Part shown: one piece after another, positions 22,766 to 56,721 of the stretch | Position numbering within the stretch: position 1 is the stretch's first letter | Layout of the letters: each line of letters starts with the position of its first letter | NCBI RefSeq assembly: GCF_019207085.1 | Contig: NZ_JAATOM010000013.1 | Coordinates: 62,001-126,000, forward strand | DNA length: 64,000 nucleotides | Reading direction: 5' to 3' | DNA from: Variovorax sp. dw_308 | Lineage (GTDB): Bacteria > Pseudomonadota > Gammaproteobacteria > Burkholderiales > Burkholderiaceae_C | Translations under genes and position numbers: made by a program | Notes under the pieces: generated by a model | Told to the model about the DNA's origin: nothing | What the model saw: the letters and a program-made list of their open reading frames with translations, nothing else | Database searches by the model: none

Positions 22766-22767
22766 CT

Positions 22768-27984: not shown

Positions 27985-28029
27985 CGACCGGGCGAAGGCG
28001 AAGCGATCGCAAGCTGAATGCCGGGCGCG

Positions 28030-28069: not shown

Positions 28070-28128
28070 CCGTCGCTCTATTCCCGAACCTACAGTTCGC
28101 TGCATCACCAATGCAGGAGACCCGAGGA

Positions 28129-29319: not shown

Positions 29320-29406
29320 ACGAGACCTTGTTGCCGCACAGCGAGGCCCGTTGACGCAGCGCGTGGGGAGCGGCCGGTCGCGCTGCGCCGATCGCCTCTC
29401 CCCCGA

Positions 29407-30393: not shown

Positions 30394-30421
30394 GCGTTGT
30401 CTCCTGCGGGGGCCATGCGGC

Positions 30422-32238: not shown

Positions 32239-32250
32239 CGGGGCGTTCCT

Positions 32251-38871: not shown

Positions 38872-41493
<2,622 letters not shown>

Positions 41494-41564: not shown

Positions 41565-41597
41565 TAAGATGCCGCCAACCACCTACCTTCTGAGAAC

Positions 41598-42070
41598 ATG
41601 AAGCTCGACGCCCTCGACCTGCGCATCCTGGACGAACTGCAACGGGATGGCGCCCTGTCCAACGTGGAACTGGCACGCCGGGTGCAGCTCTCTCCGTCGC
41701 CCTGCCTGGCGCGTGTGAAGGCGCTCGAAGCCGCCGGCGTTATCGCTCGCTACGTGGCAATCGCAAACCCGACGGCCCTCGGTCTGGGCCTGAACGTCTT
41801 CACTCCATCAGCCTCACAACGCAAAGCAAGGCGTCGCTCGCCACGTTCGAAGAGCGCATCGCCGAGCATGACGAAGTGATGGAGTGCTACCTGATGTCCG
41901 GCGACAGCGACTACCTGATCCGCGTGCAACTGGCCGACATCGGTGCGCTGGAGAAGTTCATCCTGGAACAGCTCACGCCCATCCCGGGCATCGAGAAGAT
42001 CCGCTCGAGCTTTGCGCTCAAGCAGGTGCGGTACAAGACCGCCCTGCCCCTGCCGTCGGTCCGGCTTTGA
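41598..42070 (+). pseudogene. Lrp/AsnC-family regulator with a one-base frameshift
   Basis: The first frame encodes [40 protein letters not shown] (helix-turn-helix) and [15 protein letters not shown] up to GLNVF at 41805. The next frame then gives [40 protein letters not shown] and [20 protein letters not shown] (RAM ligand domain) to a stop at 42070. The sequence TTCACTCCATC near 41803-41813 lacks one base compared with the expected TTC ATC TCC ATC. With that base the gene would give a perfect 157-residue Lrp protein. Everything else is intact, so this is either a very recent mutation or a sequencing error. Divergent from aceE, which it presumably regulates. Confidence 0.87.
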
Positions 42071-42120: not shown

Positions 42121-42864
42121 CTAAGAGGGTGTTTCGTCCGTATCGTGGTCCTCGCGACCGGACCCTGCCAGCGGCGTCCAAGCCAGCCGCTGCCCGCTGA
42201 TCCATTCGTCCAGGTGTCGCCGCGAGAACTCGACACCACGTTCGCGCAGTTCGGCGCTGCAACCCAGTGACTGGAGCGCCAACCTGACCGAATTGTCCAT
42301 GTAGGCATGCGGATCCGCCACACCGCTGCGCACGCCCTGGATGCCTCCGGCCGACGCGCCCATCAGGAAGTCGCAGGCCATCTGCGCATCATCGATCTGG
42401 AACTGCCCGAGTACCCTGCCGCGTTCCAGGTCGCGCGCCATGTAGGTGGCCACCAGCGAGTCGCGCGGCCATGCATCCATGCGCGTGACGAAGGCCGCCC
42501 AGTCGGGGTCCTGCCAGGCGCGAATGAGGAACAGGCGAAAGCCGACCGCCGCGCGCTGCCACGGCTCGTTCAGGCAGTCGTAGAGCGGAAGTATCTCCGC
42601 GATCATGCGTTCGTTCATCCCGGTGCTGGCGGCCAGAAGCGCATCGTCGAGCGAAGGAAAGTGCTGGTAGAACGTGCCGCGCGAGATCCCTGCCTCGCGC
42701 ACCACATCCTCGATGACGGGCATGTCGTCGCCTCGACGCACGAACACCTGGATGGTCGCCTCGAGGATGCGTTTGCGGGTGCGCTCGCGCTTGCGCAGCG
42801 CGCTCTGCACGCGGTGATCGTTGTCGCCGGTTCCAGGATGCGGCACTGCGGACGTTGATTGCAT
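42121..42864 (-). CDS. TetR-family transcriptional regulator
   Basis: A 247-residue TetR protein. The helix-turn-helix is at about residues 28-72 (ILEATIQVFVRRGDDMPVIE, VVREAGISRGTFYQHFPSLD). The C-terminal effector domain (AVGFRLFLIRAWQDPDWAAF) is of a general type. The start at 42864 gives the normal length; longer in-frame sequence, open to 44793, is the antisense of neighbouring genes. It is divergent from the flavin reductase/monooxygenase operon (43009 on), which it probably represses. A long low-complexity tail after LDEWISG is present. Confidence 0.9.
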   Translation of the reverse strand: MQSTSAVPHPGTGDNDHRVQSALRKRERTRKRILEATIQVFVRRGDDMPVIEDVVREAGISRGTFYQHFPSLDDALLAASTGMNERMIAEILPLYDCLNEPWQRAAVGFRLFLIRAWQDPDWAAFVTRMDAWPRDSLVATYMARDLERGRVLGQFQIDDAQMACDFLMGASAGGIQGVRSGVADPHAYMDNSVRLALQSLGCSAELRERGVEFSRRHLDEWISGQRLAWTPLAGSGREDHDTDETPS

Positions 42865-43008: not shown

Positions 43009-43524
43009 ATGACCTCCATCGAACCCAGCCTCTTCCGCTCGATCATGGGGCGTTTCGCCACCGGCGTGACCGTGGTGAGTTATCACCGGGAAGGCCAGCC
43101 GGCGGGAATGACCGCCAATGCCTTCCTGTCGGTGTCCCTCGAGCCTCCCCTGGTGCTTGTGTCCGTCCGCAAGAACTCCCAGTTCACAGCCCATGTGCTG
43201 CACGGCAGCCGCTATGGCGTGAACCTCTTGGCCGAGAGCCAGCAGGACCTGAGCTCGCACTTCGGCGGCCGGCCCGTCGAGGGCATGCCGATCCCGTTCG
43301 TGCACGCCTCTGACACACCGCTGATCGATGGCAGCCTGGCACACATCGTGGCGCGCGTCGTCGACATCCATGCGGCCGGCGACCACCTGCTCTACATCGG
43401 CGAAATCGAACATCTGAGCCATGGCACCGACGCCAGCCCGCTCATCTTCTACGGCGGCAACTATCGCCAAGTGCATACCCACAAGAAGCCCTTTGTCCAA
43501 TGGCAATCCACCGACGGCTGGTAA
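43009..43524 (+). CDS. Flavin reductase (HpaC/HsaB-like), component of monooxygenase system 1
   Basis: A 171-residue flavin:NAD(P)H reductase. Visible: FRSIMGRFATGVTVVSYHRE, GQPAGMTANAFLSVSLEPPL (flavin contact) and VRKNSQFTAHVLHGSRYGVN; the end GGNYRQVHTH is typical. Such enzymes release FADH2 or FMNH2 to a separate oxygenase. It starts the operon divergent from the TetR gene and stands 45 bases before the acyl-CoA-dehydrogenase-fold monooxygenase. A second reductase of this family is at 51459. Confidence 0.92.
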   Translation: MTSIEPSLFRSIMGRFATGVTVVSYHREGQPAGMTANAFLSVSLEPPLVLVSVRKNSQFTAHVLHGSRYGVNLLAESQQDLSSHFGGRPVEGMPIPFVHASDTPLIDGSLAHIVARVVDIHAAGDHLLYIGEIEHLSHGTDASPLIFYGGNYRQVHTHKKPFVQWQSTDGW

Positions 43525-43569
43525 CCGCCGCCCGACTTCACCTCGACCTTCACTTCCAAGGAAAGCACC

Positions 43570-44781
43570 ATGTCCCATCCACGCCCCGACCCGCAGATTG
43601 AAATCGCCGAACGCGCACAACTCGTAGCACGCGCTCGCGCCTTGAAGCCGCTGCTGCAGAAGAATGCCGCGCAAACTGAAAAGGACCGCCGCGTCGCGGA
43701 GGAAAACATCCGGGCAATGACCGAGGCCGGATTGTTCCGCACATTGCAGCCGCGCCGCCATGGCGGCTACGAAGCCGGGCTTCGCACGCACCTGGATGTG
43801 ACGGCCGCACTGGCGGAAGGCTGCCCGTCTAGCGCCTGGGTGGTCAACCTGATCGTCGTGTGCTCGTGGTTCGCCTCGCTGCTGCCGGGCCGCGCGCAGG
43901 ACGAGATCTTCGGCGCCAACCCCGATGCGCGCGTCGCCGGCGTGTTCACGCCCAGCTCGCAGACGCATCGCAAGGAAGTCGAGGGCGGCCTCGTCGTGTC
44001 GGGCAAGTGGTACTACGCCTCGGGTTGCCTGCACGCCGACTGGGGCTTGATCGGCCTCACCGAGCAGAACGACAAGGGCGAGGTCACCGATCAATACCTC
44101 GCCTACGTGCCGATGAGCGAGCTGACGATCGAAGACACCTGGTACACGGTCGGCATGAAGGGCAGCGGCAGCAACTGCCTGGTCGCCAACGAGATCTTCG
44201 TGCCAGACCACCGGATGTATTCGATCCAGCGCGCCATCGGCGGCGACTATGCGACCGAGTTCAAGGACGAGCCGCTGTACCGCAGCGCCTTCGTGCCGGT
44301 TGCTGCGTTGATCCTGGTGGGTCCGCAGCTGGGTATGGGGACGGCCGCGCTGAAGTACGTCATCGACATGGCCAGCAAGCGCAATATCGCGTACACGGTG
44401 TATGGCAAGCAGTCGGAGTCGGTGGCTTTCCAGATGCAGATTGCCGAAGCGGCCATGAAGATCGACACGGCGCATTTGCATGCCTACCGGGCCGCCGAGG
44501 ACATCGAGCGTTTCGCGACCGAGGGTAGCTATCCTGATTTCGTCGCGAGGGCGAGGGTGCGCGCGGACACGGGCCATGCCATTACGCAGATCGTCGACGC
44601 ACTCAACATCCTCGTCACGGCACACGGCGCGGGATCCTTTGCGGAATCCAGCCCGATGCAGCGCTTCTGGCGCGATGCCAACACCGGCGCGCGGCATGCC
44701 GTGGCATCGCCCCTGATCGCCGCCGAGGTGTACGGCAAGGCATTGCTTGGTGTCGACACCTTCGTCACGCCACTGGTATGA
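43570..44781 (+). CDS. Two-component flavin monooxygenase, oxygenase subunit 1 (HsaA/HpaH-C2-like)
   Basis: A 403-residue oxygenase with the acyl-CoA-dehydrogenase fold (group D flavin monooxygenases such as HsaA and C2-hydroxyphenylacetate hydroxylase). Segments: AEENIRAMTEAGLFRTLQPR, EGCPSSAWVVNLIVVCSWFA, SGKWYYASGCLHADWGLIGL, WYTVGMKGSGSNCLVANEIF and GSFAESSPMQRFWRDANTGA. It uses free reduced flavin from a reductase to hydroxylate a phenol ortho to the hydroxyl group, giving a catechol. It stands between the reductase (43009) and the VOC protein (44805), which would cleave the catechol. Its twin is at 49287. Confidence 0.9.
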   Translation: MSHPRPDPQIEIAERAQLVARARALKPLLQKNAAQTEKDRRVAEENIRAMTEAGLFRTLQPRRHGGYEAGLRTHLDVTAALAEGCPSSAWVVNLIVVCSWFASLLPGRAQDEIFGANPDARVAGVFTPSSQTHRKEVEGGLVVSGKWYYASGCLHADWGLIGLTEQNDKGEVTDQYLAYVPMSELTIEDTWYTVGMKGSGSNCLVANEIFVPDHRMYSIQRAIGGDYATEFKDEPLYRSAFVPVAALILVGPQLGMGTAALKYVIDMASKRNIAYTVYGKQSESVAFQMQIAEAAMKIDTAHLHAYRAAEDIERFATEGSYPDFVARARVRADTGHAITQIVDALNILVTAHGAGSFAESSPMQRFWRDANTGARHAVASPLIAAEVYGKALLGVDTFVTPLV

Positions 44782-44804
44782 GCCAGACCACAAAGAGGAT
44801 CAAC

Positions 44805-45380
44805 ATGGCTATCCGACCCACCAGCTTCGCGCATGTCGTCTACCGCACCTACCGCTTCCAGCAGATGCTGGCGTGGTACGTGAAGGTGTTCGACGGCAAG
44901 GTGCAATATCAGAGTCCGGTCATCGCCTTCGTCACCTACGACGACGAGCACCACCGTGTGGCCCTGCTCAACATGGGCATCATCGTCGGGGAGTCCGACG
45001 CCCGCTCGCCACGCGGCCAGCCCGGGATGGACCACGTGGCCTACGGCTACCGATCGCTCACCGAACTGTTCGAGAAGTACGCTGAGCTGAAGGCGACAGG
45101 CGTGCTCCCGTACTGGTGCATCCACCACGGCATCACGGTCTCGCTCTACTACGCCGACCCGGACGGCAACCAGATGGAGTTCCAGGCGGACTGCTACACC
45201 TCGAACGACGAAGCCAACGCATTCATGTACGGCCCGAATTTCGAACTCAATCCGATCGGTGTCGAGTTCGATCCGGAAGTCTTCCTGGCCCGCTTGCGCG
45301 CCGGCGAAAGCGAAGCGGCGCTGCTGCGGCGGACCGAGCATCTGCCGGTGTCGGAAGTTCGCGGTTCGATGATGGGCTGA
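44805..45380 (+). CDS. VOC protein, probable extradiol ring-cleavage dioxygenase 1
   Basis: A 191-residue vicinal-oxygen-chelate protein. The ATG at 44805 is preferred over 44778 because AAGAGGA lies directly upstream. Three metal-ligand positions are recognisable: His in TSFAHVVYRTYRFQQMLAWY, His in GMDHVAYGYRSL and Glu in GNQMEFQADCY. Single-module proteins of this kind occur next to HsaA-type hydroxylases and are annotated as biphenyl-2,3-diol dioxygenases. A ring-cleaving role is therefore likely but not proven. It ends 31 bases before the arylsulfatase gene. Confidence 0.85.
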   Translation: MAIRPTSFAHVVYRTYRFQQMLAWYVKVFDGKVQYQSPVIAFVTYDDEHHRVALLNMGIIVGESDARSPRGQPGMDHVAYGYRSLTELFEKYAELKATGVLPYWCIHHGITVSLYYADPDGNQMEFQADCYTSNDEANAFMYGPNFELNPIGVEFDPEVFLARLRAGESEAALLRRTEHLPVSEVRGSMMG

Positions 45381-45411
45381 GAGGCCGGGCAAACGAATAC
45401 CCGAAGTCTTC

Positions 45412-47120
45412 ATGAACGCTTTTCCCTGGCTGCTCGCCGCCGGCCTGACATTGATCGGCCAGGGCGCCGCCGCTCTTGCCTCACCGGCCAGGCCGCCCGA
45501 CATCCTCGTCGTCCTGGCCGACGACCTGGGATTCAACGATACCCGGCCGTTCGGCCAGACCGTCATCCAGACGCCGACGCTCAGCGCCCTGGCCCGCGAA
45601 GGCATGCGTTTCACCAACTTCCACGTGCATGCGACCTGCTCGCCAACGCGCGCCCAGTTGCTGACCGGCGTGGACAACCACCGCGCCGGCATGGGAGCTA
45701 TGGGCGAGTACCACACGCCTGCAATGGACCAGTTACCCGGCAGCTACATCGGTGCCCTCAACGATCGCGTGACGACCTTCGCCGAAGTGCTGAAGCGCCG
45801 CGGCTACGCAACCTTCATGGCCGGGAAGTGGCACCTCGGTGGCAAGGAAAGCCAACTGCCACCGGCACGCGGCTTCGACCGCTCGTTCGTGCTGCTCGGC
45901 GGCGGCGCCAGCCACTGGAACGACCAGGGCCTGCTCGGCATCGCACCGAAGGCCCGCTTTGCCGAGGACGGCAAGCCAGTGGCGCGCGATACCGGGCAGT
46001 TCTCGTCCGATCTCTACACTGACAAGCTGCTGTCGTACCTGAAGGAGGCCCAGGCGGCGAAAAAGCCCTCCTCGGGTACCTCGCGTTCCAGGCGGTGCAC
46101 GATCCGTTGCACGCGCCGCCCGAATTCACCGCCAGGTACAAGGGCAAGTTCGCGGGCGGCTACGACGCCGCGCGCAAGGAACTGTTCGCCAACATGCGGC
46201 GTCTCGGGGCGAGCACGCGCATGGGCCCTGCGGCGCCCTTGTTCAAGCCTTGGGCTGAACTGTCGGCCGACGAACGCGTGACGCAGGAACGCTTGATGGA
46301 GGTCTACGCCGGCATGGTCGAGAACCTCGACATGAACATCGGCCGGGTGGTGTCGGCACTGAAGAAATCCGGCGCCTACGACAACACGGTGATCCTGTTC
46401 TTCTCCGACAACGGGCCGTCGGCCGCCTACATGGGCCTGTACCAGGGCAACGCCGATGGCGAGTACGTACGCAAAAACTTCGACACCTCGCTGGCCAACC
46501 TCGGCGCGCCGCGCTCTTTCGCCGGCCTCGGGCCCGGCTGGGCCTACGCGAGTTCGGCACCGTTCAAGTCCTTCAAGATGTTCGTGACCGAGGGCGGCAC
46601 GCTCTCGCCGCTGATCGTCAAGGGGCCCATGGTGCGCAAGCCCGGCACGATGAACGACGCGTTCCTCGGCGTGGAGGACGTCTTCCCGACCGTTCTCGAC
46701 ATCGCCAAGGCCCAGCGGGGCAAGACGGCGAACGGCCAAACGCTGGAGCCACTCAAGGGCTTGTCGTTCTTGCCGATGCTGACCGGCCAGTCGCCATCCG
46801 TGCGCGCCGATGACTTCGAACGCGGCGAGGAACTGTTCGGCAACAAGGCCTGGCGTCAAGGTCGCTGGAAGATCAGCTGGCTGCCCAAGCCCTATGGCGA
46901 GGCGCGCTGGCAATTGTTCGACACCCAAGCCGACCGCGGCGAAACGCGCGACCTCGCGGCCGAGCAGCCCGCCCGTCTCGCGGCGATGGCCGCGCGCTAC
47001 GACCGCTGGGCACGCGAGAACAGCGTGGTGGACTGGGACTACGCCTACCTGGGCCGCGAACTGTTCGACTATTTCGATTGGCGCAAGGGCATCCCCGTGC
47101 AGATCGAGAACCGTGATTGA
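45412..47120 (+). pseudogene. Arylsulfatase with a one-base frameshift
   Basis: The first frame (from 45412) encodes a signal peptide (MNAFPWLLAAGLTLIGQGAA), the metal site ILVVLADDLGFND (Asp37, Asp38), the sulfatase signature CSPTRAQLLTG with the formylglycine Cys76, and FMAGKWHLGG. At 46066-46072 the run AAAAGCCCTCC lacks one base (AAG CCC TTC CTC expected) and the frame is lost. The next frame resumes with GYLAFQAVHDPLHAPPEFTA, VILFFSDNGPSAAYMGLYQG and a normal C-terminus at 47120. With the base restored the protein would be a standard periplasmic type I sulfatase of about 569 residues. Either a recent mutation or a sequencing error. Confidence 0.88.
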
Positions 47121-47171
47121 GGGTGGCCTCGACAAGAATTTCCCGGAACAAGTTTTGAGAAAGCCCATGCA

Positions 47172-47603
47172 ATGAGCAGCAATACAAGCCAGCCAACCCG
47201 CACCGAGGACGAGGCCGCCTGTGCGCGCCTGTGCGTCGACTTCGCGAACCACCTCGACGCACGTCGCTATGCCGAGGTGCTCGACCTGTTCACACCCAAC
47301 GGCACGCTGGACCGCATGGGCACGGTGTTCACCGGCCGCACCGCGATCGAGAGCTTTCTCAATGGACGACCAACGGGCATGGTGACCCGGCATCTGTGCA
47401 CCAACATCCGCGTGCTCTTCGAAAGCGCCGACGAAGCCACCGGCCAGTGCTACGTCCTGTTCTTTCAGGGCAGCGCGGAACCCGACGGCGCGTCCCTCGC
47501 AAAGGGACCACCTTCGGTGGTCGAATACCACGACCGCTTCAGGCGCACGGCATCGGGCTGGCGCATCCAGGAGCGGCGCATCCGCATGGCGATCCAAGGC
47601 TAA
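47172..47603 (+). CDS. SnoaL/NTF2-like protein
   Basis: A 143-residue NTF2-fold protein: EDEAACARLCVDFANHLDAR at the start, then RYAEVLDLFTPNGTLDRMG and the final strand pair VVEYHDRFRRTASGWRIQER. It resembles the SnoaL_4 family that often accompanies aromatic and steroid catabolism genes (small subunits of ring oxygenases, hydratases, isomerases). It lacks an obvious signal peptide. Located between sulfatase and YciI genes in one plus-strand series, it is likely part of the same pathway; the function is not assignable. Confidence 0.82.
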   Translation: MSSNTSQPTRTEDEAACARLCVDFANHLDARRYAEVLDLFTPNGTLDRMGTVFTGRTAIESFLNGRPTGMVTRHLCTNIRVLFESADEATGQCYVLFFQGSAEPDGASLAKGPPSVVEYHDRFRRTASGWRIQERRIRMAIQG

Positions 47604-47625
47604 TCATTCGATCAAGGAGACTTGC

Positions 47626-47958
47626 ATGCTCTTCACCCTGTATTGCATCGACCATCCCGGCAGCACCGAGCGCAGGCTGGCGCTGCGTCCCATTCATCGC
47701 GCGCATGTCGCCACGGTGGCGGAAAGACTCGCGGCGGCAGGACCGTTGTTTGCGGACGATGGCGAGACGATGGTCGGCAGCTTGCTGATCGTCGATTTCG
47801 AGGATCGCGCGGCGCTCGACGCGTGGCTGAAGGACGAGCCTTATACGCAGCAGGGCGTCTACGAGAGCGTCACCGTGCGGCCCTTCCTCAACGTGTGGCC
47901 CCAACGCACTGGTTCGCCACCGCAGGACATGTCGAAGCTGAGCGCGTTCTCGCGCTGA
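47626..47958 (+). CDS. YciI-family protein
   Basis: A 110-residue ferredoxin-like-fold protein of the YciI family. Segments: MLFTLYCIDHPGSTERRLAL, RPIHRAHVATVAERLAAAGP, VGSLLIVDFEDRAALDAWLK and the DEPYTQQGVYESVTVRPF end with the conserved DPYxxAG-like motif. In degradative pathways YciI relatives act as small hydrolases or dehalogenases (for example TftG), with catalytic His and Asp; here His24 (HRAH) and Asp89-region residues could serve. An ATG with AAGGAGAC before it gives a sure start. Confidence 0.87.
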   Translation: MLFTLYCIDHPGSTERRLALRPIHRAHVATVAERLAAAGPLFADDGETMVGSLLIVDFEDRAALDAWLKDEPYTQQGVYESVTVRPFLNVWPQRTGSPPQDMSKLSAFSR

Positions 47959-48111
47959 CGCTATCGCCCGGCCCATCCTGCGACAACGTCCTTGACGGGC
48001 TGCGCATGGGCGACTCGTCCAGGCCGCGTCGCCGTGCGCCTGCGTGGCCAATGCACACGATGCCTAATCGTCGCGCCCCATGTGGAACGGCCGGTTGGTG
48101 GAGTTCCCCCC

Positions 48112-49143
48112 TCAGCCGAGGTCGAATGCCAGCCAACGCGCCGCGTTCCGCCATCGCAGCATCTCCGCAGCTTCGTCGTCCAGATTGAGTGACAGCAGCC
48201 GCTGAGCAGGTTCCCGATCCATGATCGCAAACGGGTAGTCAGTGCCGACCATCACCTGCCCTGCGCCGACCAACTCGATCAGCGCGCGGATCGCGGCCGC
48301 GTCGTAGAGCAAGTCGTCATAGAACATCAACCGCGCCGCGGAATTCGGCGCCAACTGGATCGCATCGCGCAACCCCTGCGTTGCCTCCCACGCATACTGC
48401 AACCTCGGCACCAGCGCCTGGATCGACCCCCCGCCGTGGCTCATTGCGATACGAAGCCGAGGATGCCTGGCCAATGTGCCACCGGTGATCAGCGAAGCGG
48501 CAGCCAAGCCGATTTCTCCCGGAAAACCCACCACCTGTTCGAGCGACCGCGGCCCGACGAGGCGATCCATGCCGGCCGGACGCAACGGGTGCACGAACAA
48601 TGCAGCGCCCCATTCTTCCGCCGCTGCGAAGAACGGCTCGAAGCGAGGGTCGCCGATGGCGGTGCCGTTGACATTGCTACCAATCTCCACGCCGGAGAGC
48701 TTCAGCACGTGCATGGCGTAATCGAGTTCCTTGATTGCAAGGTCCACGTCCTGCAGTGGCACCGCACCCAGCGCGCTGAAGCGCGAGGGCGCATCCGCCA
48801 CCATCTGCGCCAGCGTCTCGTTGAGGTAGCGCGACAGCACGGCGCCATCTTCTGCATCCAGCCAGTAGGAGAGCAGTTCAGGCATGGGCGACAACACGTG
48901 GCGTTCGACTTCGATCCGGTCCATGTCGTCGCGGCGCAAGGCGGTGTCCCAGCTCTGGTCCGGCACGGTGCGATAGACCTTGCCGGAAATCATGACGTGC
49001 CGATGGCAGGGCTGCTGCGCCTGTGCCATCGAGGGCCACGGCACGCCGATACGCGAGCCGAGGTAAGCGGGGAAGTCGCGCGGCACGACATGCGTGTGAA
49101 TGTCGATGCAGCCGCAACGCCAGCGCGGCGAAGTCTGTTCCAT
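48112..49143 (-). CDS. ACMSD-family amidohydrolase (metal-dependent decarboxylase)
   Basis: A 343-residue protein of the aminocarboxymuconate-semialdehyde decarboxylase family. Here the first metal motif is complete (DIHTHVVP, HxH), followed by ALFVHPLRPAGM, IAMSHGGGSIQALVPRLQYA and QVMVGTDYPFAIMDREP with the catalytic Asp. It is thus a fuller version of the enzyme at 36587. The ATG at 49143 is supported by AGGAGAG. It is divergent from monooxygenase system 2, with a strong inverted repeat in the gap. It could remove a carboxyl from a phenolic acid before hydroxylation or from a cleavage product. Confidence 0.9.
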   Translation of the reverse strand: MEQTSPRWRCGCIDIHTHVVPRDFPAYLGSRIGVPWPSMAQAQQPCHRHVMISGKVYRTVPDQSWDTALRRDDMDRIEVERHVLSPMPELLSYWLDAEDGAVLSRYLNETLAQMVADAPSRFSALGAVPLQDVDLAIKELDYAMHVLKLSGVEIGSNVNGTAIGDPRFEPFFAAAEEWGAALFVHPLRPAGMDRLVGPRSLEQVVGFPGEIGLAAASLITGGTLARHPRLRIAMSHGGGSIQALVPRLQYAWEATQGLRDAIQLAPNSAARLMFYDDLLYDAAAIRALIELVGAGQVMVGTDYPFAIMDREPAQRLLSLNLDDEAAEMLRWRNAARWLAFDLG

Positions 49144-49211
49144 GTTCAAAGCTCTCCTGGTGAAGCTGCAATCCAAGGGTTTGTCCCGAGGCAAAAATTC
49201 TCGCATTTAGA

Positions 49212-49269
49212 TTGTAAAAGCAACCATTTAGAAGTCTAATCGCTTTCAGACAAAAGGTCGCTTTTACAA
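49212..49269. promoter_or_regulatory. Large divergent inverted repeat TTGTAAAAGCAACC...GGTCGCTTTTACAA
   Basis: The 14-base arm at 49212-49225 pairs with 49256-49269 with one mismatch, across a 30-base spacer. It occupies the gap between the divergent ACMSD-type gene and monooxygenase 2. Two identical, oppositely oriented sites about four helical turns apart (44 bases centre to centre) are what a dimeric regulator controlling both promoters would need. The MarR protein at 54297 is a candidate. Confidence 0.7.
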
Positions 49270-49286
49270 CCATATTGGTGCTCACC

Positions 49287-50531
49287 ATGACTTCAGATGC
49301 AACCACCCTGGCGCGCCCGGCGCGCATCAACACCGCCATCGCCGCCAGCCTGCCCACCTTCGACGAACTCATGTCCCGTGCCACCGCCCTGGGCACCGTG
49401 GTGCGCGAGCGCGCACGCCAGACCGAGCTCGATCGCCGGGTCTCGCCCGAGGTCACCGACATGCTGCGTGATGCGGGCCTCTACCGGGCACTGCAGCCCA
49501 AGCGCTTCGGAGGTTATGAACTTTCCATCGAGGAATTGCGTGCACTTGCGTTCGAGATTGGACGCGGCTGCACGTCGACCGGTTGGTGCTACGGGCTCAG
49601 CGCTGCGATGTCGTGGGTCGTCGGCATGTTCCCCGACCAGGCCCAGCGAGATGTGTGGGAAGCGACGCCCGACGCAGTGGTCGCTTCATGCATCGCGCCG
49701 ACCGGGAAAATCCGCAGCGTCGAGGGCGGCTACAAGTTTCAGGGACGCTGGAGCTTTGGCAGCAACAGCGACAACGCAAGCTGGCTGGCGCTCGGCGGCA
49801 TGCTCTCGGCTGGCGAAGGCGAGCCGCCACGGCCGATGTTTCTGATGGTCCCGCAAGGCCAGTACCGCATCATCGACAACTGGCACACCGTCGGACTGGC
49901 CGGCACCGGCAGCAAGGACATCGCGATCGAAGACGAGATCTTCGTGCCCGCGCATCGTGCCGTCAGCTTTGCCGAAGTTCTCAACCAGCAATCGCCGGGC
50001 GCACTGGTGAACCCGTCCGCCCTCTACAACATCCCTTTCCTCAGCGGCTTTCCGCCATTACTGGCAAACCCCGCTGTGGCGGCACTGCGCGGCGCCATCG
50101 ACGAGTTCGTCGAAAGCGTGGCCGCGCGCACCACGCGTGGCGCCTTCGCAGGCGGCGGCAACACGATCGGCAACTTCGGCCATGTGCAATCGGCCATCGC
50201 CGAGGCCGAAGCCGCGGTCGATGCCGCCCAGCTGATCCTTCAGCGCGACCTGCGTGTGGTGACTGACATGGCAGCGTGCGGCAGCAAGGCCACGACCGGG
50301 CAGCGCATCGAGTTTCGCCGCGGCCATGCCTACGCGGTCAAGCTGTGCGTGAACGCCATCAACGGCCTGTTCGACGCCGTCGGCGGCACCGGCATCAACC
50401 TGGACAACGGCGTGCAGCGCGCATGGCGCGACATCCATGCGGTGGCGCATCACATCAGCGTCAACTGGAATGCCGTCTCCACGATGGTGGGCCAGATGCG
50501 CCTGGGCCTGCCGCCGCGCGGCCAGTACTGA
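49287..50531 (+). CDS. Two-component flavin monooxygenase, oxygenase subunit 2 (HsaA-like)
   Basis: A 414-residue acyl-CoA-dehydrogenase-fold oxygenase, twin of 43570 but clearly diverged. Segments: LRDAGLYRALQPKRFGGYEL, GCTSTGWCYGLSAAMSWVVG, GRWSFGSNSDNASWLALGGM, WHTVGLAGTGSKDIAIEDEI and VGGTGINLDNGVQRAWRDIH. The ATG at 49287 is used; the frame also runs from a TTG four codons earlier. It starts the operon with a two-domain VOC protein, flavin reductase, MFS carrier and FAH protein. It probably hydroxylates a phenol using FMNH2 or FADH2 from 51459. Confidence 0.9.
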   Translation: MTSDATTLARPARINTAIAASLPTFDELMSRATALGTVVRERARQTELDRRVSPEVTDMLRDAGLYRALQPKRFGGYELSIEELRALAFEIGRGCTSTGWCYGLSAAMSWVVGMFPDQAQRDVWEATPDAVVASCIAPTGKIRSVEGGYKFQGRWSFGSNSDNASWLALGGMLSAGEGEPPRPMFLMVPQGQYRIIDNWHTVGLAGTGSKDIAIEDEIFVPAHRAVSFAEVLNQQSPGALVNPSALYNIPFLSGFPPLLANPAVAALRGAIDEFVESVAARTTRGAFAGGGNTIGNFGHVQSAIAEAEAAVDAAQLILQRDLRVVTDMAACGSKATTGQRIEFRRGHAYAVKLCVNAINGLFDAVGGTGINLDNGVQRAWRDIHAVAHHISVNWNAVSTMVGQMRLGLPPRGQY

Positions 50532-50548
50532 ACGCAAAGGACTGCCCA

Positions 50549-51472
50549 GTGATCCGCTATCAAAAATTCGGCCGCGTCGAGATCAACGTCACCGACCTGG
50601 CGCGCTCGCGCCGCTACTACGAGGAAGTCGTGGGCCTGCAGTTTGTCGGCACCGGTGCCGACGGCGAAGTGCTGATGCGCTGCGACCAGGACCACCACAA
50701 CTTCGTGCTCCATGCGGCGCAAAGCGCAGGCCTGCGTTGCGCCGGTTTCATGCTCGAGAACGTGGCGCAGTTCGAGCCACTGCTGGAGCGGTTGCGAGAG
50801 GCTGGCATCGAGCCACACGAGAGCTCGGCACAGGCCTGCCGCGAACGCATGCAAAAGCGCGCGATCCGCTTCTTCGAACCTGCCGTTGGCGCCACCATCG
50901 AGTTCTACGTTCCGGCGGACGATTCGGCGCGCCCGTTCAAGCCCACGGTCACCCGCATCCAGCGGCTCGGGCACGTCGTGTTCAACACGCCGCAGCCCGA
51001 AGCGGCGCTGCGCTTCTGGCGTGACGTGCTGAACTTCAAGGTCTCCGACTCGGTCGGCGACATGATCACTTTCCTGCGCTGCTGGCCCAACCCGTTCCAC
51101 CATGGCATCGGTATCGCCAAGTTTCCCAGGCACAGTCTCCACCACGTCAATTTCATGGTGACCGAGATCGACGATGTCGGCCGCGCGCTGAGTCGACTGC
51201 GTCGCGCCGAGTCAGAGGTCGTCTTCGGCCCGGGCCGTCACCCGGCGTCCGAGAGCGTGTTCCTCTACTTCCTCGATCCGGACGGCCTGACCATGGAGTA
51301 CAGCTTCGGCATGGAGGCCTTTCCCGAGACGTTTGCACGCGAACCCCGCCAGCTCCCGCTTGCCCCCAAGTGGCTGGACCAATGGGAGTCCACGCGTGAT
51401 CCCCGCTGCTTCACAGGCGCGGGCCCGAATGCATCCCTTGAAACCCATGAGGTGAGCCATGAGCAACATTGA
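50549..51472 (+). CDS. VOC protein, probable two-domain extradiol dioxygenase 2
   Basis: A 307-residue protein of two glyoxalase/VOC modules, starting at a GTG 17 bases after the monooxygenase gene. The C-terminal module has RLGHVVFNTPQPEAALRFWR (His), HSLHHVNFMVTEIDDVGRAL (His) and GLTMEYSFGMEAF (Glu), the three Fe ligand positions of type I extradiol dioxygenases. The N-terminal module is RVEINVTDLARSRRYYEEVV. It overlaps the flavin reductase gene by 14 bases. Expected reaction: meta-cleavage of the catechol made by 49287. Confidence 0.86.
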   Translation: MIRYQKFGRVEINVTDLARSRRYYEEVVGLQFVGTGADGEVLMRCDQDHHNFVLHAAQSAGLRCAGFMLENVAQFEPLLERLREAGIEPHESSAQACRERMQKRAIRFFEPAVGATIEFYVPADDSARPFKPTVTRIQRLGHVVFNTPQPEAALRFWRDVLNFKVSDSVGDMITFLRCWPNPFHHGIGIAKFPRHSLHHVNFMVTEIDDVGRALSRLRRAESEVVFGPGRHPASESVFLYFLDPDGLTMEYSFGMEAFPETFAREPRQLPLAPKWLDQWESTRDPRCFTGAGPNASLETHEVSHEQH

Positions 51473-51971
51473 AACCGCGATCGTCGATCCGCGCGAACTG
51501 CGCAACGCATTGGGCCGCTTCGCCACTGGCGTGTGCGTGGTCACCACCGTCGGCCAGGACGGTCGTGCGGCGGGACTAACGGTGAACTCATTCAGCTCCG
51601 TGTCGCTGGACCCGCCGTTGGTGGCGTGGTGCCTGGGGCGCAAGGCGCCCAGCCTTGCCGCGTTCTCGGCATCGGCCTACTTTGCCGTGCACGTCCTGGC
51701 CGCGGACCAGCAGCACATCGCCATGCACTTCGCCCGGCCATCTGATAACAAGTTCGCCCTGCTCGAGGGCGAACTGCAGCAAGGCATCGGCAATGTGCCG
51801 GTGCTGGCCAATGCACTGGCGCGCTTCGAATGCCGGACCGCAAAGATGACCGACTGCGGCGACCACGTGATGTTCTTCGGCCAGGTCGAGCGCTTCAGCT
51901 ACGCCAGCAGCGAACCGCTGGTGTTTCATGCCGGCCGGTTCGTCGAAGACCGCCGCCAGCCTGCAGCGTGA
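51459..51971 (+). CDS. Flavin reductase (HpaC/HsaB-like), component of monooxygenase system 2
   Basis: A 170-residue flavin reductase: RNALGRFATGVCVVTTVGQD, GRAAGLTVNSFSSVSLDPPL, VAWCLGRKAPSLAAFSASAY and FHAGRFVEDRRQ at the end. The family fold and flavin contacts match 43009, but the two sequences differ enough to have separate partners. Its start overlaps the VOC gene by 14 bases and there is an ATG with a GAGGTGAGC ribosome-site region. Provides reduced flavin to 49287. Confidence 0.92.
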   Translation: MSNIETAIVDPRELRNALGRFATGVCVVTTVGQDGRAAGLTVNSFSSVSLDPPLVAWCLGRKAPSLAAFSASAYFAVHVLAADQQHIAMHFARPSDNKFALLEGELQQGIGNVPVLANALARFECRTAKMTDCGDHVMFFGQVERFSYASSEPLVFHAGRFVEDRRQPAA

Positions 51972-52003
51972 TTCCGTCCTTCAAGAAAAAACAAGGAGAC
52001 AAG

Positions 52004-53266
52004 GTGTCCATTCAACTTCGCAATCCCTGGTGGATCGTGCTTGGCTCGGTACTGGGCCTCATCGTCGGCAACGTGACCGTGCTGCAGTTCTCTGCTTCGG
52101 TGCTGATGAAGCCGATCATGGCCGAGTTCGGCTGGAACCGCAGTGTGCTGTCGGCGGCCGTCATGCTCGGTTCCTTCTGCGCCGCCGCCGCGACGCCGTT
52201 CGTCGGACGGTTGATCGACAAGCACGGCGTCAAGCCCATCACGCTGTTTGCCATCACGTTCTTCGCGCTGTCGACCGCCGCCATGTCGCTGGCGCCCGCA
52301 GTGGCGCCGGTGTTCATCGGCATGTTCTGCGTTCTCGGCGTGTTCAGCGGCGGGCAGGCGCCGCTGCCTTATGCAAAGTCGATCGCGGGCGCCTTCGACC
52401 GGCGGCGCGGCCTCGCGATGGGCATCGCGATGACTGGCGTCGGTCTCGGCACGGCGCTCATCCCCAAGCTCGCGCAGGTCTATCTCGACAACCTCGGCTG
52501 GCGCGGCGCCTACGTTGCGCTGGGCGCCACGGTGTTCCTGATTGCCTTTCCGGCGGTGGCGCTCTTTCTCAGCGAGCCGGCGGCGCGGCGCGGTGGCTCG
52601 ACCCCGGGAGCGCTGCCCGGGTTGGAAGCTCGTCAGGTCGTGCGGACAAAGGAGTTCTGGATCTTGTCCTTCGTTTTTTTCTGCATTCCTGTCGTGGCGA
52701 ACGGCATCATCGTGCACCTTGTTCCGCTGCTCACGGACCGTGGCATTCCGTCGCAGCAGGCGGTGGCGATCTTCTCCAGCATCGGGGCTTCGCTGATCGT
52801 GGGGCGGCTTGCGTGCGGCTACTTGCTGGATCGCTTCTTCGCGCCCCATGTGGCGATTGCCTTCATCGTGATTCCCGCGCTCGGTGTCCTCACGCTGCTT
52901 GCGAGTACGGACCCGATGCTGACCACCGTCGGCGCCGTCCTGGTGGGCATCGGCCTTGGTGCCGAGGTCGATCTGATCGGCTACCTGCAAAGCCGCTACT
53001 TCGGCCTGCGCGCTTTCGGTCAGGTCTATGGCTACCTGTTTGCCATCTTCACCGTTGGCACCGGACTCGGCCCATTCGTGATGGGTGCAACCTTCGATGC
53101 CACGGGCTCCTACCACCCGGCCTTGGTCGGCTTCGTCGTGACGCTGGTGTGCGCAGGCGCGGCGTTGCTGCGCATGCCGGGCAAATACCCCTTCCCGGTT
53201 CATCACACCGGCAACGGTGCTGCGTCGGCCAGCCCCAACGCGGCCTCGCGAATCCACCCCGCCTGA
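52004..53266 (+). CDS. MFS transporter (monocarboxylate/OFA-type)
   Basis: A 420-residue, 12-helix transporter, starting at GTG 52004 behind a perfect AAGGAGAC. It begins LRNPWWIVLGSVLGLIVGNV, and has GWNRSVLSAAVMLGSFCAAA, PFVGRLIDKHGVKP, KSIAGAFDRRRGLAMGIAMT and LACGYLLDRFFAPHVAIAFI. The FDRRRGLAMGI motif is characteristic of monocarboxylate/oxalate-formate antiporter-like carriers. It lies in the system 2 operon and should import the aromatic acid or export a product. The frame is open further upstream (51830), but only within the reductase gene. Confidence 0.9.
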   Translation: MSIQLRNPWWIVLGSVLGLIVGNVTVLQFSASVLMKPIMAEFGWNRSVLSAAVMLGSFCAAAATPFVGRLIDKHGVKPITLFAITFFALSTAAMSLAPAVAPVFIGMFCVLGVFSGGQAPLPYAKSIAGAFDRRRGLAMGIAMTGVGLGTALIPKLAQVYLDNLGWRGAYVALGATVFLIAFPAVALFLSEPAARRGGSTPGALPGLEARQVVRTKEFWILSFVFFCIPVVANGIIVHLVPLLTDRGIPSQQAVAIFSSIGASLIVGRLACGYLLDRFFAPHVAIAFIVIPALGVLTLLASTDPMLTTVGAVLVGIGLGAEVDLIGYLQSRYFGLRAFGQVYGYLFAIFTVGTGLGPFVMGATFDATGSYHPALVGFVVTLVCAGAALLRMPGKYPFPVHHTGNGAASASPNAASRIHPA

Positions 53267-53302
53267 GTCACTTCTTCCTCCTTTCCCATTCCTGCTTCAC
53301 CC

Positions 53303-54172
53303 ATGAAACTCGTCACCTATCTCCACGACCACCAGACCTCTATCGGCAAGGTCGAAGGCGATCGCGTCATCGACCTGCCTGCCAATGATCCGTCGTTGCC
53401 CGCAACGATGCGAGAACTGCTTCAGGCGGGACCGGATGCCATGGCCAAGGCCAAGGCGATCCCGTTAAGCGCCGCCCACGCACTGCCGCTGGCCGACGTG
53501 AAGTTGCTGGCACCGGTTCCGAACTCTTCCAAGTTCCTGGCCATCGGCATGAACTACAGGAAGCACGTCGAAGAGGCGAGCAAGGTCGGGGTCAAGACGC
53601 CGCCCACCCAGGTCTGGTTCAACAAGCAAGTCTCCTGCGTCAATGGCCCCGACGGCGACGTGCATCTTCCCAGGGTGTCCGACAAGCTCGACTACGAAGT
53701 TGAACTGTGCGCGGTCATCGGCAAGCGCTGCCGGCATGTCAGCCGCGAGGACGCGCGTTCGGTGATCGCGGGCTACATGGTGTGTAACGACGTCTCGGTG
53801 CGCGACTGGCAGCTTGCCACGCCGACCATGACTGTCGGCAAGTCCTTCGACACCACCGGACCCACCGGGCCGTGGATCGTGACGAGCGATGAGATCGGTG
53901 ACCTCGGTGCGTTCAGGTTGCGCATGTGGGTCAACGGTGATCTTCGCCAGGACGACTTCGCCAACCAGATGATCCATGACATCGATGCGCAGATCGCCTA
54001 CCTGTCGGCGGCCTTCACCCTGGAGCCGGGCGACCTGCTCGCCACCGGCACGCCTTCGGGCGTCGGTGTGGCGATGGAGCCGCCCCGGTATCTGAAGGCC
54101 GGCGACGTCATGCGGGCCGAGATCGAAGGCATCGGGGCCATCGAAAATCGCGTGGTGCCCGAGCCAGTCTGA
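53303..54172 (+). CDS. Fumarylacetoacetate hydrolase (FAH) family protein
   Basis: A 289-residue FAH-family enzyme: KFLAIGMNYRKHVEEASKVG, KLDYEVELCAVIGKRCRHVS (metal Glu residues), GYMVCNDVSVRDWQLATPTM (Asp), VGKSFDTTGPTGPWIVTSDE and GDLLATGTPSGVGVAMEPPR. It is of the same type as 30422 but clearly diverged. In meta-cleavage pathways such enzymes hydrate or hydrolyse the ring-cleavage product. Last structural gene of the system 2 operon, followed by a MarR gene. Confidence 0.92.
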   Translation: MKLVTYLHDHQTSIGKVEGDRVIDLPANDPSLPATMRELLQAGPDAMAKAKAIPLSAAHALPLADVKLLAPVPNSSKFLAIGMNYRKHVEEASKVGVKTPPTQVWFNKQVSCVNGPDGDVHLPRVSDKLDYEVELCAVIGKRCRHVSREDARSVIAGYMVCNDVSVRDWQLATPTMTVGKSFDTTGPTGPWIVTSDEIGDLGAFRLRMWVNGDLRQDDFANQMIHDIDAQIAYLSAAFTLEPGDLLATGTPSGVGVAMEPPRYLKAGDVMRAEIEGIGAIENRVVPEPV

Positions 54173-54296
54173 CCTGGCGCCAGGCGCGCTCGGACGGCTG
54201 CGGCAGTGCGCGGCGATGAGTGGGGTTTTTCATGGTTTAAGCTATCAAAACGAAGTCGCGCCAGCCCGGCGCCGCCGCTTCGAGTTCCAAACTGCC

Positions 54297-54929
54297 ATGC
54301 CGCGAAGCAAGCCTGAAACACCCCCTCCCGCCACGCCTGCCAAGCCCGTCGCCAAACGCGCGCGTGCGCCCGCATCAAGGTCTGCGAATCGAAACCTCCC
54401 TGCGCCAGCAGGCGGAGCGCTATTCGATGTCGAGCATTCCATCGGCTATCTCCTCAATCGAGCGGCCAATATCATCGCGGCGCGTTTCAGTGACGAACTG
54501 AAGACGCATGGCGTCAATCTGCAGACGTGGCGCGTGCTCGCTGCGCTGAGCTACCAGGACCAGCAGTCGCTGAGCGACCTGGCCAACCACACCGGCTCCG
54601 AGCTCTCGTACCTTTCGCGCTCTGTTGCCAGCGCCGAGACTCGCGGGCTGGTGGCGCGTGTCGTCTCTCCTGCCGACAAACGCGCGGTACTTCTCACACT
54701 GACGCCAGCCGGACGCGCCATGGTGAAGGAGTTGGCACCGCGCGGTGTGCGCATCGAGAAGACCTCGGTCACTGGCGTTCCGAGGGCTGACGTAGAGACC
54801 ACCTTGCGCACCTTGCATGCGATCTATCACAACATGGTCGACGGCTCAGGCGATCTGACCGGCGTGAACCGCAAACTGACCATCGCACGACGGGTTCAGA
54901 AAAAACGTGCACTGGAGGAGAGCCAATAG
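54297..54929 (+). CDS. MarR-family transcriptional regulator
   Basis: A 210-residue MarR protein. A basic, proline-rich 40-residue N-terminal tail precedes the domain IGYLLNRAANIIAARFSDEL, LQTWRVLAALSYQDQQSLSD, the winged helix LANHTGSELSYLSRSVASAE and RVVSPADKRAVLLTLTPAGR. The ATG at 54297 gives a sensible start; the earlier one at 54216 would add 27 residues. No clear ribosome site is visible. Family members usually release DNA upon binding phenolic ligands, which fits the system 2 operon just upstream. It is convergent with the second MarR gene. Confidence 0.88.
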   Translation: MPRSKPETPPPATPAKPVAKRARAPASRSANRNLPAPAGGALFDVEHSIGYLLNRAANIIAARFSDELKTHGVNLQTWRVLAALSYQDQQSLSDLANHTGSELSYLSRSVASAETRGLVARVVSPADKRAVLLTLTPAGRAMVKELAPRGVRIEKTSVTGVPRADVETTLRTLHAIYHNMVDGSGDLTGVNRKLTIARRVQKKRALEESQ

Positions 54930-55671: not shown

Positions 55672-56721
55672 ATGGAACACCCCACCGCCGACTCACACCC
55701 CATGAATGCCGCGCGATTCCCCTCCAACCGCTGGTGGGTCGCGGGCTTCGCGTGGGAGCTCAAGGACAAGCCGCTCGCCCGCACCTTGCTCGGCCATCCG
55801 ATGGTGCTGTTCCGCGGGCCGCAGGGTGTCGCGGCACTGGAAGACCGCTGCTGCCACAAGAACCTGCCCCTGTCATGCGGCAGCGTCGAAGGGCCGGGGC
55901 TGCGCTGCGGCTATCACGGGCTGCTGTTCGATGAACGCGGCGTCTGCGTCGAGATCCCCGGGCAGGCCTACATCCCCGAGCGCGCCCGTGTCGTGAGCTA
56001 CCCCTTGCGCGAAGTGGACCAGATCCTCTGGGTGTGGATCGGCCAGGGCGAGCCGGCCGATGAGCCGCCACACTACCCGGTGCATGTCGACCCGCGCTTC
56101 AAGTTCGGCGGCGACAGCTTCCACTACAAGGCGCCCTACCAGCTCATCCACGACAACCTGCTGGACCTGAGCCATGTCGGCTATGTGCACCAGAAAACCA
56201 TCGGCGGCAATCCGAAGCTGCACATGAGCGCGAAGTTCGACGTGACGTCAGACGCCGAGGTCGTGCGTGTCACGCGCCCCATGCCCGACAGCGTGCCGCC
56301 GCCCACCTACACGGCGGCCTGGCCCTTCGCGGGCCGGGTGGACCGCTGGCAGGAGGTCGAGTTCCACGTCTCGCACCTCGTGATCTGGACCGGCGCGATG
56401 GACGCGGGCAGCGGCGACCTGGCCGATGCCAACCGCGCCGGCTTCCACATCCACGGCTTCCACGGCGTCACGCCAGAGACCGCGACCACCTCGCACTACT
56501 TCTGGACCGTCGCCACCAATGAGCATCCGACGCGGCCCGGCGCGGCCGACGTGCTGGTGAAGCAGGTGGTCGACACCTTCCACGAGGACAAGGACATCAT
56601 CGAGGCGCAGTGGGCCAACCAGGTGCGCTTCGCGGCCGACTGGCGGCAGGTCGCGATCCACGTCGACGGCGGCCCGAACCGCGCGCGGCGGATCATGACG
56701 GCACTGACCGCGCAGCAGTAG
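55672..56721 (+). CDS. Rieske oxygenase alpha subunit (VanA/O-demethylase type)
   Basis: A 349-residue terminal oxygenase of the single-subunit Rieske type (vanillate O-demethylase family). The Rieske [2Fe-2S] ligands are Cys60 and His62 (DRCCHKNLP), Cys79 and His82 (LRCGYHGLLF). The mononuclear iron site lies in HDNLLDLSHVGYVHQ (His168, His173), with an Asp in the later DKDIIEAQ helix. An AAGGG ribosome site precedes the ATG. Such enzymes demethylate aryl ethers or hydroxylate substrates with electrons from a VanB/PDR-type reductase. No reductase gene is adjacent; the one at 20135 is a candidate. Followed by a Bug gene 54 bases on. Confidence 0.93.
   Translation: MEHPTADSHPMNAARFPSNRWWVAGFAWELKDKPLARTLLGHPMVLFRGPQGVAALEDRCCHKNLPLSCGSVEGPGLRCGYHGLLFDERGVCVEIPGQAYIPERARVVSYPLREVDQILWVWIGQGEPADEPPHYPVHVDPRFKFGGDSFHYKAPYQLIHDNLLDLSHVGYVHQKTIGGNPKLHMSAKFDVTSDAEVVRVTRPMPDSVPPPTYTAAWPFAGRVDRWQEVEFHVSHLVIWTGAMDAGSGDLADANRAGFHIHGFHGVTPETATTSHYFWTVATNEHPTRPGAADVLVKQVVDTFHEDKDIIEAQWANQVRFAADWRQVAIHVDGGPNRARRIMTALTAQQ

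Follow-up and report, generated by a model that had tools for sequence, protein, structure and literature searches.

The gra/tsd genes encode the degradation of gamma-resorcylate and resorcinol, and they are one of the described systems with which we compare here a gene island of Variovorax sp. dw_308, located in a 64,000-nucleotide stretch (hereafter the window) that covers positions 62001-126000 of contig C21 (NZ_JAATOM010000013.1; genome 7.9 Mb, G+C about 65%). Another is the ipp cluster of Rhodococcus sp. D-6 where, according to the accessible part of its report, the group D oxygenase IppA1A2 hydroxylates 2-isopropylphenol at the para position and the hydroquinone is cleaved by IppB, a 2-isopropylhydroquinone dioxygenase whose ligands His29, His92 and Glu140 have a spacing of 63/48 (PMC12442392). 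In the fde naringenin operon of Herbaspirillum and the ifc isoflavone cluster of Variovorax sp. V35, as far as the available text describes them, an FAD monooxygenase acts before cleavage by a glyoxalase-family enzyme, FdeC or IfcB (PMC11069340).

The island carries two flavin-hydroxylase cassettes and, next to them, an operon of fde/ifc-like make-up, and we think it reasonably probable that it serves the degradation of phenols of resorcinol or polyketide type, of plant or lichen origin. Cassette 1 (FR1-OX1-VOC1-SnoaL) and cassette 2 (a divergent decarboxylase gene and OX2-VOC2-FR2-MFS-FAH-MarR) would bring together known kinds of enzymes in a combination that we did not find described; in the open literature searched (titles and the starts of abstracts) no paper on this gene set was found, apart from the related ipp and ifc papers. 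All gene calls between 38.8 and 55.5 kb were assigned to families, by gene calling with Pfam and NCBIfam scans, the MFS and TetR genes through annotated homologues of Paraburkholderia sp. D15 rather than through Pfam in the correct frame. The families listed in a preliminary description of this DNA were thereby borne out, namely two reductase/oxygenase hydroxylase systems (PF01613 and PF08028), the SnoaL-like, YciI-family and ACMSD-type genes (Pfam and ACMSD structural relatives), and FAH, MFS, TetR and MarR (Pfam for FAH and MarR, the Paraburkholderia homologues for the other two). The features are:

38872-41457, minus strand: E1, a 2-oxo-acid dehydrogenase E1 of MdeB type, 861 amino acids (NCBIfam TIGR03186)
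41577-42064, plus strand: Lrp/AsnC regulator gene, frameshifted (tblastn with a 171-amino-acid homologue from L006)
42121-42846, minus strand: TetR regulator, divergent from FR1 (53% to the annotated TetR of Paraburkholderia D15)
43009-43524, plus strand: FR1, flavin reductase of cassette 1 (PF01613, 8.7e-37)
43570-44781, plus strand: OX1, group D flavin monooxygenase with acyl-CoA dehydrogenase fold, of the XiaF-side lineage (PF08028, 3.1e-26)
44805-45380, plus strand: VOC1, single-domain dioxygenase of type I extradiol type, 191 amino acids
45412-47120, plus strand: arylsulfatase gene broken by a frameshift (open reading frames 45412-46281 and 46095-47120)
47172-47603, plus strand: SnoaL/NTF2-like protein, SnoaL_4 (PF13577, 7.5e-26)
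47626-47958, plus strand: YciI-family protein (PF03795, 1.2e-17)
48112-49143, minus strand: amidohydrolase of ACMSD/resorcylate type, a putative decarboxylase, divergent from OX2 (PF04909, Amidohydro_2)
49278-50531, plus strand: OX2, group D flavin monooxygenase (PF08028, 1.8e-27; the preliminary description began it at 49287, and alternative starts lie just upstream of that position)
50549-51472, plus strand: VOC2, two-domain extradiol-type dioxygenase (PF00903)
51459-51971, plus strand: FR2, flavin reductase of cassette 2 (PF01613, 6e-42)
52004-53266, plus strand: MFS carrier (71% identity to a Paraburkholderia D15 protein annotated as MFS transporter)
53303-54172, plus strand: FAH-family hydrolase, acylpyruvase-like (PF01557, 3.6e-70)
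54216-54929, plus strand: MarR regulator (PF12802, 3.4e-11)
54958, minus strand: a second MarR (Pfam)

In order to compare gene neighbourhoods, 62 comparator loci, each with a relative of OX1, OX2 or VOC1, were scanned by tblastn at E <= 1e-8 across at least 45% of the query, a length filter that drops, for example, the FAH of L012 (62%) and the VOC0 of L011 (42%). The near-identical pairs L018/L019 and L022/L023, each from two species, were each counted separately; L039, L058 and L068 end at contig edges, and L014 and L029 are shorter than 5 kb. L006 is a copy of cassette 1 on contig C1 of the same genome, while L038, L042 and L043 come from G088, G011 and G012, genomes of the same genus as the host (same-genus comparison set, 101 genomes). 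L070 is plasmid NZ_CP110397.1 of Paraburkholderia sp. D15, L071 is from Cupriavidus P-10 and L017 from Pseudonocardia acidicola.

Both PF08028 oxygenases are accompanied by a separate PF01613 reductase, as in group D two-component systems, and both have in their C-terminal region a His aligned with that of C2-HPAH (2jbr), which we take to be catalytic. OX1 and OX2 share 30% identity, and a 36-row tree puts them in different halves, each with full support; long branches leave the exact position of its three PDB rows unsure. Among solved structures XiaF comes closest to OX1 (1.5e-79, 37% identity), followed by HsaA (5.4e-58), and HsaA comes closest to OX2 (8.4e-64). For both, the NCBIfam ranking puts HsaA first and p-hydroxyphenylacetate hydroxylase second, so the HsaA/HsaB likeness suggested earlier holds as a family resemblance, but the equivalog cut-offs are far from reached (288.1 bits for OX1 and 315.2 for OX2 against 450 for HsaA; 121.9 for FR1 and 124.7 for FR2 against 230 for HsaB). 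The steroid-like phenols proposed at the same time have nothing beyond that resemblance in their favour, and the missed HsaA, HsaB and HsaC cut-offs led us to reject a steroid reading. Among 399 genomes sampled from the family, with up to four candidates scored per genome and the genus incompletely covered, OX1 was found at E <= 1e-120 in two, its own genome included, and OX2 at E <= 1e-150 in its own genome alone. A fifth oxygenase relative in the same genome (L005/L008) has 28% identity.

The OX2 clade (support 99/99) includes the oxygenases of a Rhizobium tsdA cluster and of a Variovorax intradiol-dioxygenase cluster, and because of this clade and of the amidohydrolase-family putative decarboxylase gene adjacent to it, as in gra/tsd, a resorcinol-type ring is the most likely substrate of OX2. 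Annotated in the Rhizobium cluster (L076) are a flavin reductase, a flavin-dependent monooxygenase, the gamma-resorcylate decarboxylase tsdA, a maleylacetate reductase, a dioxygenase and a YciI protein. The amidohydrolase of the window has ACMSDs as its best solved relatives (1.8e-52), gamma-resorcylate decarboxylases standing lower in the list. By alignment with 1han, 2wl3 and 2zi8, VOC2 has the same ligand and second-shell residues as BphC and is predicted to be a two-domain type I extradiol dioxygenase; its relatives are BphC, HpaD and catechol 2,3-dioxygenase, and it scores under the BphC equivalog cut-off (131.9 vs 366.45 bits) and also misses that of HsaC. For the FAH at 53303 the best NCBIfam model is 2,4-didehydro-3-deoxy-L-rhamnonate hydrolase (210.7 bits, below the cut-off of 500), and the FAH family suits 1,3-dioxo products. 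In cassette 2, the ACMSD-type enzyme would decarboxylate a resorcylate-like acid, OX2/FR2 would add a hydroxyl in the fashion of a resorcinol hydroxylase, VOC2 would perform an extradiol ring cleavage and FAH would hydrolyse the dioxo acid formed, with the MFS carrier as the likely importer and MarR as the likely regulator.

Two His and one Glu as ligands, with a second-shell His/His/Tyr, form the type I extradiol dioxygenase set, and the alignment of VOC1 with its relatives (n = 28) is consistent with it: H50, H77, H108, Y115 and E125 are present in all 28, and H10 and Y116 in 27 (for H10, one gap). The extradiol-type His-His-Glu positions noted earlier in both VOC proteins therefore stand, here through this alignment and for VOC2 through that with BphC. 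The ligands of VOC1 (H10, H77, E125) have a spacing of 67/48, and a Rhodococcus VOC1 relative beside FAH and acetoacetate-CoA ligase genes has exactly 63/48. In a profile search of the PDB, VOC1 found 9u42 first (3e-11), a structure titled homogentisate 1,2-dioxygenase of Acinetobacter, that is, with a hydroquinone-type substrate; our literature search found no report of a VOC-type homogentisate dioxygenase. Because the ipp system para-hydroxylates and cleaves a hydroquinone, and because the best solved relative of VOC1 is 9u42, the ortho-hydroxylation and meta-cleavage proposed in the preliminary description become doubtful for cassette 1, although we give para- over ortho-hydroxylation little better than an even chance. 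OX1/FR1 would thus hydroxylate a phenol, VOC1 would open the ring, perhaps that of a hydroquinone, an FAH would hydrolyse the cleavage product, and the MdeB-type E1 together with an E2 would turn the 2-oxo acid into an acyl-CoA; TetR would regulate, and SnoaL and YciI could be auxiliary. The substrates, the regiochemistry and the step order, as well as the part played by E1, are all inferred.

The E1 gene sits beside cassette 1, outside the bounds of the preliminary description. It scores 1449.7 bits with TIGR03186, above the cut-off of 1408.3, and lower (1306.9) with the aceE model TIGR00759. MdeB is a 2-oxobutyrate dehydrogenase E1. Homologues lie within the OX1 operon in L070 and L071, adjoin VOC1 in L060 and stand near OX1 in Pseudonocardia acidicola (L017, 55%), and a third E1 (54%) elsewhere in the host genome is presumably the housekeeping enzyme. 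A dedicated E1 points to a 2-oxo acid other than pyruvate as the product of ring cleavage and subsequent hydrolysis by FAH.

The linkage of these genes recurs in other places. The cassette 1 copy on contig C1 (L006) reads E1-Lrp-TetR-FR1-OX1-VOC1-SnoaL, with 81-96% protein identity and 87.4% DNA identity over 6.5 kb; the latter value rules out a recent duplication, and the copy is therefore an old paralogue or a second acquisition. In L038 OX1 and FR1 occur with FAH and VOC1, and L070 and L071 have OX1-FR1-E1-E2-VOC1-FAH with a small NTF2-like or unassigned protein, so that FAH shares an operon with the oxygenase and VOC1 in these three loci and in several from Actinomycetota, and not in the window or L006. 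TetR homologues were found at the OX1 clusters of L006, L007, L038, L039, L070, L071 and L011. An FAH gene lies near OX1 in 13 of the 27 loci that one scan gave from named genomes, all 13 among the 18 with OX1 identity of at least 53% and none among the nine below it (seven of these from Streptomyces), and a VOC gene in 14 of the 18 and none of the nine, this cut having been set after viewing the data and on loci of unequal length. With 22 FAH genes in the 7.9 Mb host genome, a random 20 kb stretch would contain one with a chance of about 5%, a figure that applies to this genome and not to Actinomycetota. SnoaL is present in 9/29 loci with a VOC1 relative and adjoins VOC1 in L006, L056, L057, L059, L062, L063 and L067. 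YciI follows SnoaL in L043, the only one of the 62 comparator loci in which the tblastn scan found it; YciI annotations also occur in two other clusters, that for resorcylate in Rhizobium (L076) and a VOC-FAH cluster of Rhodococcus (L079).

Cassette 2 keeps its order, decarboxylase included, in L042 (85-94%) and in L070 (58-79%, with MarR two genes further), the amidohydrolase having the same position in both, and without the decarboxylase in L043 (57-75%); a MarR homologue stands near its end in all three. In L043, VOC1, SnoaL and YciI (85, 68 and 81%) are found 2-9 kb from OX2, without OX1. Counterparts of both cassettes occur together in Paraburkholderia sp. D15, within about 25 kb (NZ_CP110397.1 55637-80944) that also hold E1, E2, FMO, an iron-containing alcohol dehydrogenase, decarboxylase, MFS, FAH, TetR and MarR. 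This strain came from a lichen, the sole habitat label to fit the theme, and one such label proves nothing. Three genomes of the genus have OX2 at 70% or higher, and each of them also has VOC1 at 75% or higher, vs 11 of the 101 overall (hypergeometric p about 0.001, with thresholds set after seeing the data and relatedness uncorrected). In all 15 gene pairs compared between the window and the C1 copy, G011 or G012, the sulfatase excluded, the ratio of nonsynonymous to synonymous substitution (dN/dS) was 0.06-0.29, and the cassette genes look maintained by purifying selection. The linkage of the genes other than the sulfatase is real; from the earlier proposal of one pathway we thus keep the hydroxylase/dioxygenase sets with FAH, which recur linked in other genomes, and leave out the sulfatase.

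That sulfatase was central to the preliminary description, in which an intact arylsulfatase provided the entry step of an aryl-sulfate/phenol island, with desulfation or decarboxylation followed by ortho-hydroxylation, meta-cleavage and hydrolysis. All the families it names are present and adjacent, the N-terminal piece of the sulfatase retains the CSPTR motif in translation, and the gene is flanked by VOC1 and SnoaL, with which it is co-oriented. However, no uninterrupted frame crosses the Sulfatase domain as sequenced: Pfam matches positions 1-164 of the domain to the open reading frame 45412-46281 and positions 175-299 to 46095-47120, in another frame. The relatives L052, L053 and L054 likewise align in two frames, frame 1 to at most 46056 and frame 3 from at least 46077 (three of five relatives aligned; L051 and L055 gave no alignment because too short a frame was taken). 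A sulfatase homologue was found by tblastn in none of the 62 comparator loci, and in L006 VOC1 and SnoaL are adjacent with nothing between them. The sulfatase is therefore an insert between VOC1 and SnoaL, outside the conserved unit and broken as sequenced; the frameshift and the absence of homologues from the comparator loci speak against a working sulfatase and its desulfation step, and make the aryl-sulfate island highly unlikely. The case illustrates that gene adjacency as a basis of annotation can mislead. The Lrp gene also lacks one base relative to L006 and L060, the 171-amino-acid homologue of L006 matching it across two frames, which makes two frameshifts within about 4.4 kb; a sequencing error is possible, and so is local decay.

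An indole- or auxin-ring-opening operon of iac/iif type, with an IacA-type oxygenase, a flavin reductase, SnoaL (IacI) and a small accessory protein, was also considered for cassette 1, since XiaF, the best solved relative of OX1, is an enzyme of indolosesquiterpene biosynthesis; in the consulted portion of the iac report, IacA is an oxygenase of the acyl-CoA-dehydrogenase family and IacI has a SnoaL fold (PMC7225977). This is very improbable and was dropped: the gene calls between 38.8 and 55.5 kb include no short-chain dehydrogenase (IacE/IifB), the frequent partners are VOC and FAH, and indole oxygenases of the IifC kind are by description styrene-monooxygenase-like enzymes of group E. More weight has to be given to the view that both cassettes, cassette 1 too, ortho-hydroxylate to catechols for a classical meta-cleavage of HsaABC or HPAH kind. 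The NCBIfam ranking of the oxygenases and the extradiol active-site set kept by VOC1 and VOC2 agree with it, but the HsaA, HsaB, HsaC and BphC cut-offs are missed, the ipp parallel and 9u42 indicate hydroquinones, and the FAH partners fit 1,3-dioxo products by what is known of the family. In its favour again, the ipp report describes the cleavage of 2,3-dihydroxybiphenyl by two enzymes related to IppB, BphC2 and BphC3 (PMC12442392), and on balance we regard the catechol route as doubtful, though far from negligible. The two cassettes could also be unrelated catabolic modules lying side by side in a hot spot of aromatic degradation, given that they have separate regulators and distantly related oxygenases, that each is found without the other (L006, L042), that OX2 and VOC1 are on different contigs in G011 (C14 and C41) and that blocks of the island are rearranged. 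Their joint presence in Paraburkholderia D15, and in part in G012, as well as the co-occurrence of OX2 with VOC1 within the genus, make this rather unlikely.

Several observations weigh against the reading that we prefer, an island for resorcinol- or polyketide-type phenols. Cassette 1 has neither an E2 nor an FAH of its own in the window, the nearest FAH being 8 kb off in cassette 2, and within the 20 kb read around the C1 copy there is no FAH, cassette 2 gene or decarboxylase. VOC1 recurs without OX1, both with SnoaL (L056, L057, L059, L062, L063, L066 and L067) and without it (for example L064 and L065), so that VOC1 and OX1 need not share one pathway; VOC1 is also far commoner than OX1 among the 101 genomes of the genus, which speaks against a fixed pair. 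The AlphaFold model of VOC1 (pLDDT 74.7) gave a weak fold search in which FosA/FosB and glyoxalases score almost equally, and this search cannot separate dioxygenases from FosA-like transferases or decide the substrate class. The relatives of OX2 in annotated clusters are paired with an intradiol dioxygenase rather than with a VOC, the Rhizobium one being labelled just "dioxygenase". When plasmid DNA was searched with 38.9-54.9 kb, 30 records were found, and the eight of them that were listed all match E1 alone; since mdeB-type E1 genes are widespread on plasmids in other settings, the linkage of E1 with OX1 may be partly coincidence. Finally, in the later steps of the ipp pathway, as given in the accessible part of its report, dehydrogenation and reduction precede hydrolysis (PMC12442392).

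The island extends beyond the two cassettes, with the following genes:

30422-33882, minus strand: FAH0-VOC0-FMO0 operon (FAH, VOC and FAD monooxygenase) of fde/ifc-like make-up
28177, 35080 and 36587: the further island genes ADH28, ALDH0 and AMH0, respectively

Homologues of these genes occur with VOC1 or with the cassettes in L056, L057, L061, L067, L043 and L070; at least two of FAH0, VOC0 and FMO0 accompany VOC1 in L056, L061 and L067, and an FMO0 homologue is found with OX1/OX2 in L070. The contig carries another FMO0, with 69% identity, some 38 kb beyond this one (L010 6494-8107). The blocks 23389-30919 and 48120-54919 are adjacent in G011 (L042; 89% and 83% DNA identity), and as they lie 17 kb apart here and differ in orientation, the island has been shuffled. 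At 22403-23340 a transposase-like fragment, IS3-type by eye, stands beside a 175-amino-acid piece of an alcohol dehydrogenase-like protein. L006 has the whole protein (385 amino acids, 96% identity) close to the other cassette 1 copy, and the site in the window is possibly a rearrangement scar. A 107-amino-acid protein at 60294-60617 has homologues between OX1 and FAH in L038 (54%) and beside FAH-VOC1 in L061 (48%), so that the island may also take in the last part of the window, 59-64 kb. The Rieske-type oxygenase next to cassette 2 (55672-56721) has weak matches of 33% in L062 and L063 and none above the length filter in the 62 comparator loci, and therefore probably falls outside the conserved unit. 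Positions 2001-10000, with a G+C of 0.60-0.62 vs about 0.65 elsewhere and a recombinase-like gene by eye at 8484-9269, are possibly a younger insertion.

If the preferred reading is correct, the island would contain a catabolic unit for phenols about whose bacterial breakdown genes little is known, a unit that recurs in several genera of Burkholderiales and, as its OX1-VOC-FAH core, in Actinomycetota. It would also tie a resorcinol-hydroxylase lineage to extradiol rather than intradiol cleavage, an MdeB-type 2-oxo-acid dehydrogenase may be linked to ring cleavage, and the enzymes would be candidates for regioselective hydroxylation and ring cleavage. A more speculative and unlikely possibility is that OX1-FR1-(MdeB-type E1/E2)-VOC1-FAH-SnoaL forms an undescribed, horizontally moving module, whose two-component hydroxylase and single-domain dioxygenase of hydroquinone type would supply a 2-oxo-acid dehydrogenase dedicated to it. 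In that event the 2-oxo acid would not be pyruvate, and could for example be 2-oxobutyrate from a C-methylated ring, as in lichen or other polyketide phenols, with cassette 2 taking on the other ring, or the resorcylate half, of that molecule.

Compared with the described systems, the cassettes share with the HsaABC steroid catechol pathway the logic of a two-component hydroxylase followed by an extradiol VOC, and differ in that their proteins widely miss the HsaA, HsaB and HsaC models. The FAH0-VOC0-FMO0 operon resembles fde/ifc in make-up, by description and not by sequence, whereas fde/ifc, in the available part of the paper, use a single-component group A hydroxylase in contrast to the two-component OX1 and OX2, and the later IfcD enzymes are cupins (PMC11069340). 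The gamma-resorcylate clusters of the Rhizobium sp. N324 and Variovorax SRS16 plasmids have, like cassette 2, an OX2-type oxygenase, a flavin reductase, an amidohydrolase-family gene, MarR and MFS, and that of Rhizobium also has a YciI protein like the window. They carry an intradiol dioxygenase and a maleylacetate reductase or iron-containing alcohol dehydrogenase, however, where in the window OX2 is accompanied by the extradiol VOC2 and an FAH, with no intradiol hydroxyquinol dioxygenase among the gene calls between 38.8 and 55.5 kb, the part of the genome to which that search was confined. The eight ipp genes, as listed in the accessible text, lack E1, SnoaL and TetR and include an acetoacetyl-CoA synthetase, a RibBA-like and a nitroreductase-like protein (PMC12442392). 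On the same source, ipp and cassette 1 are alike in having a group D oxygenase, a small flavin reductase, a single-domain HHE VOC protein of about 200 amino acids and an FAH-family gene, the likeness of VOC1 to IppB being one of gene make-up and ligand spacing rather than of full sequence comparison.

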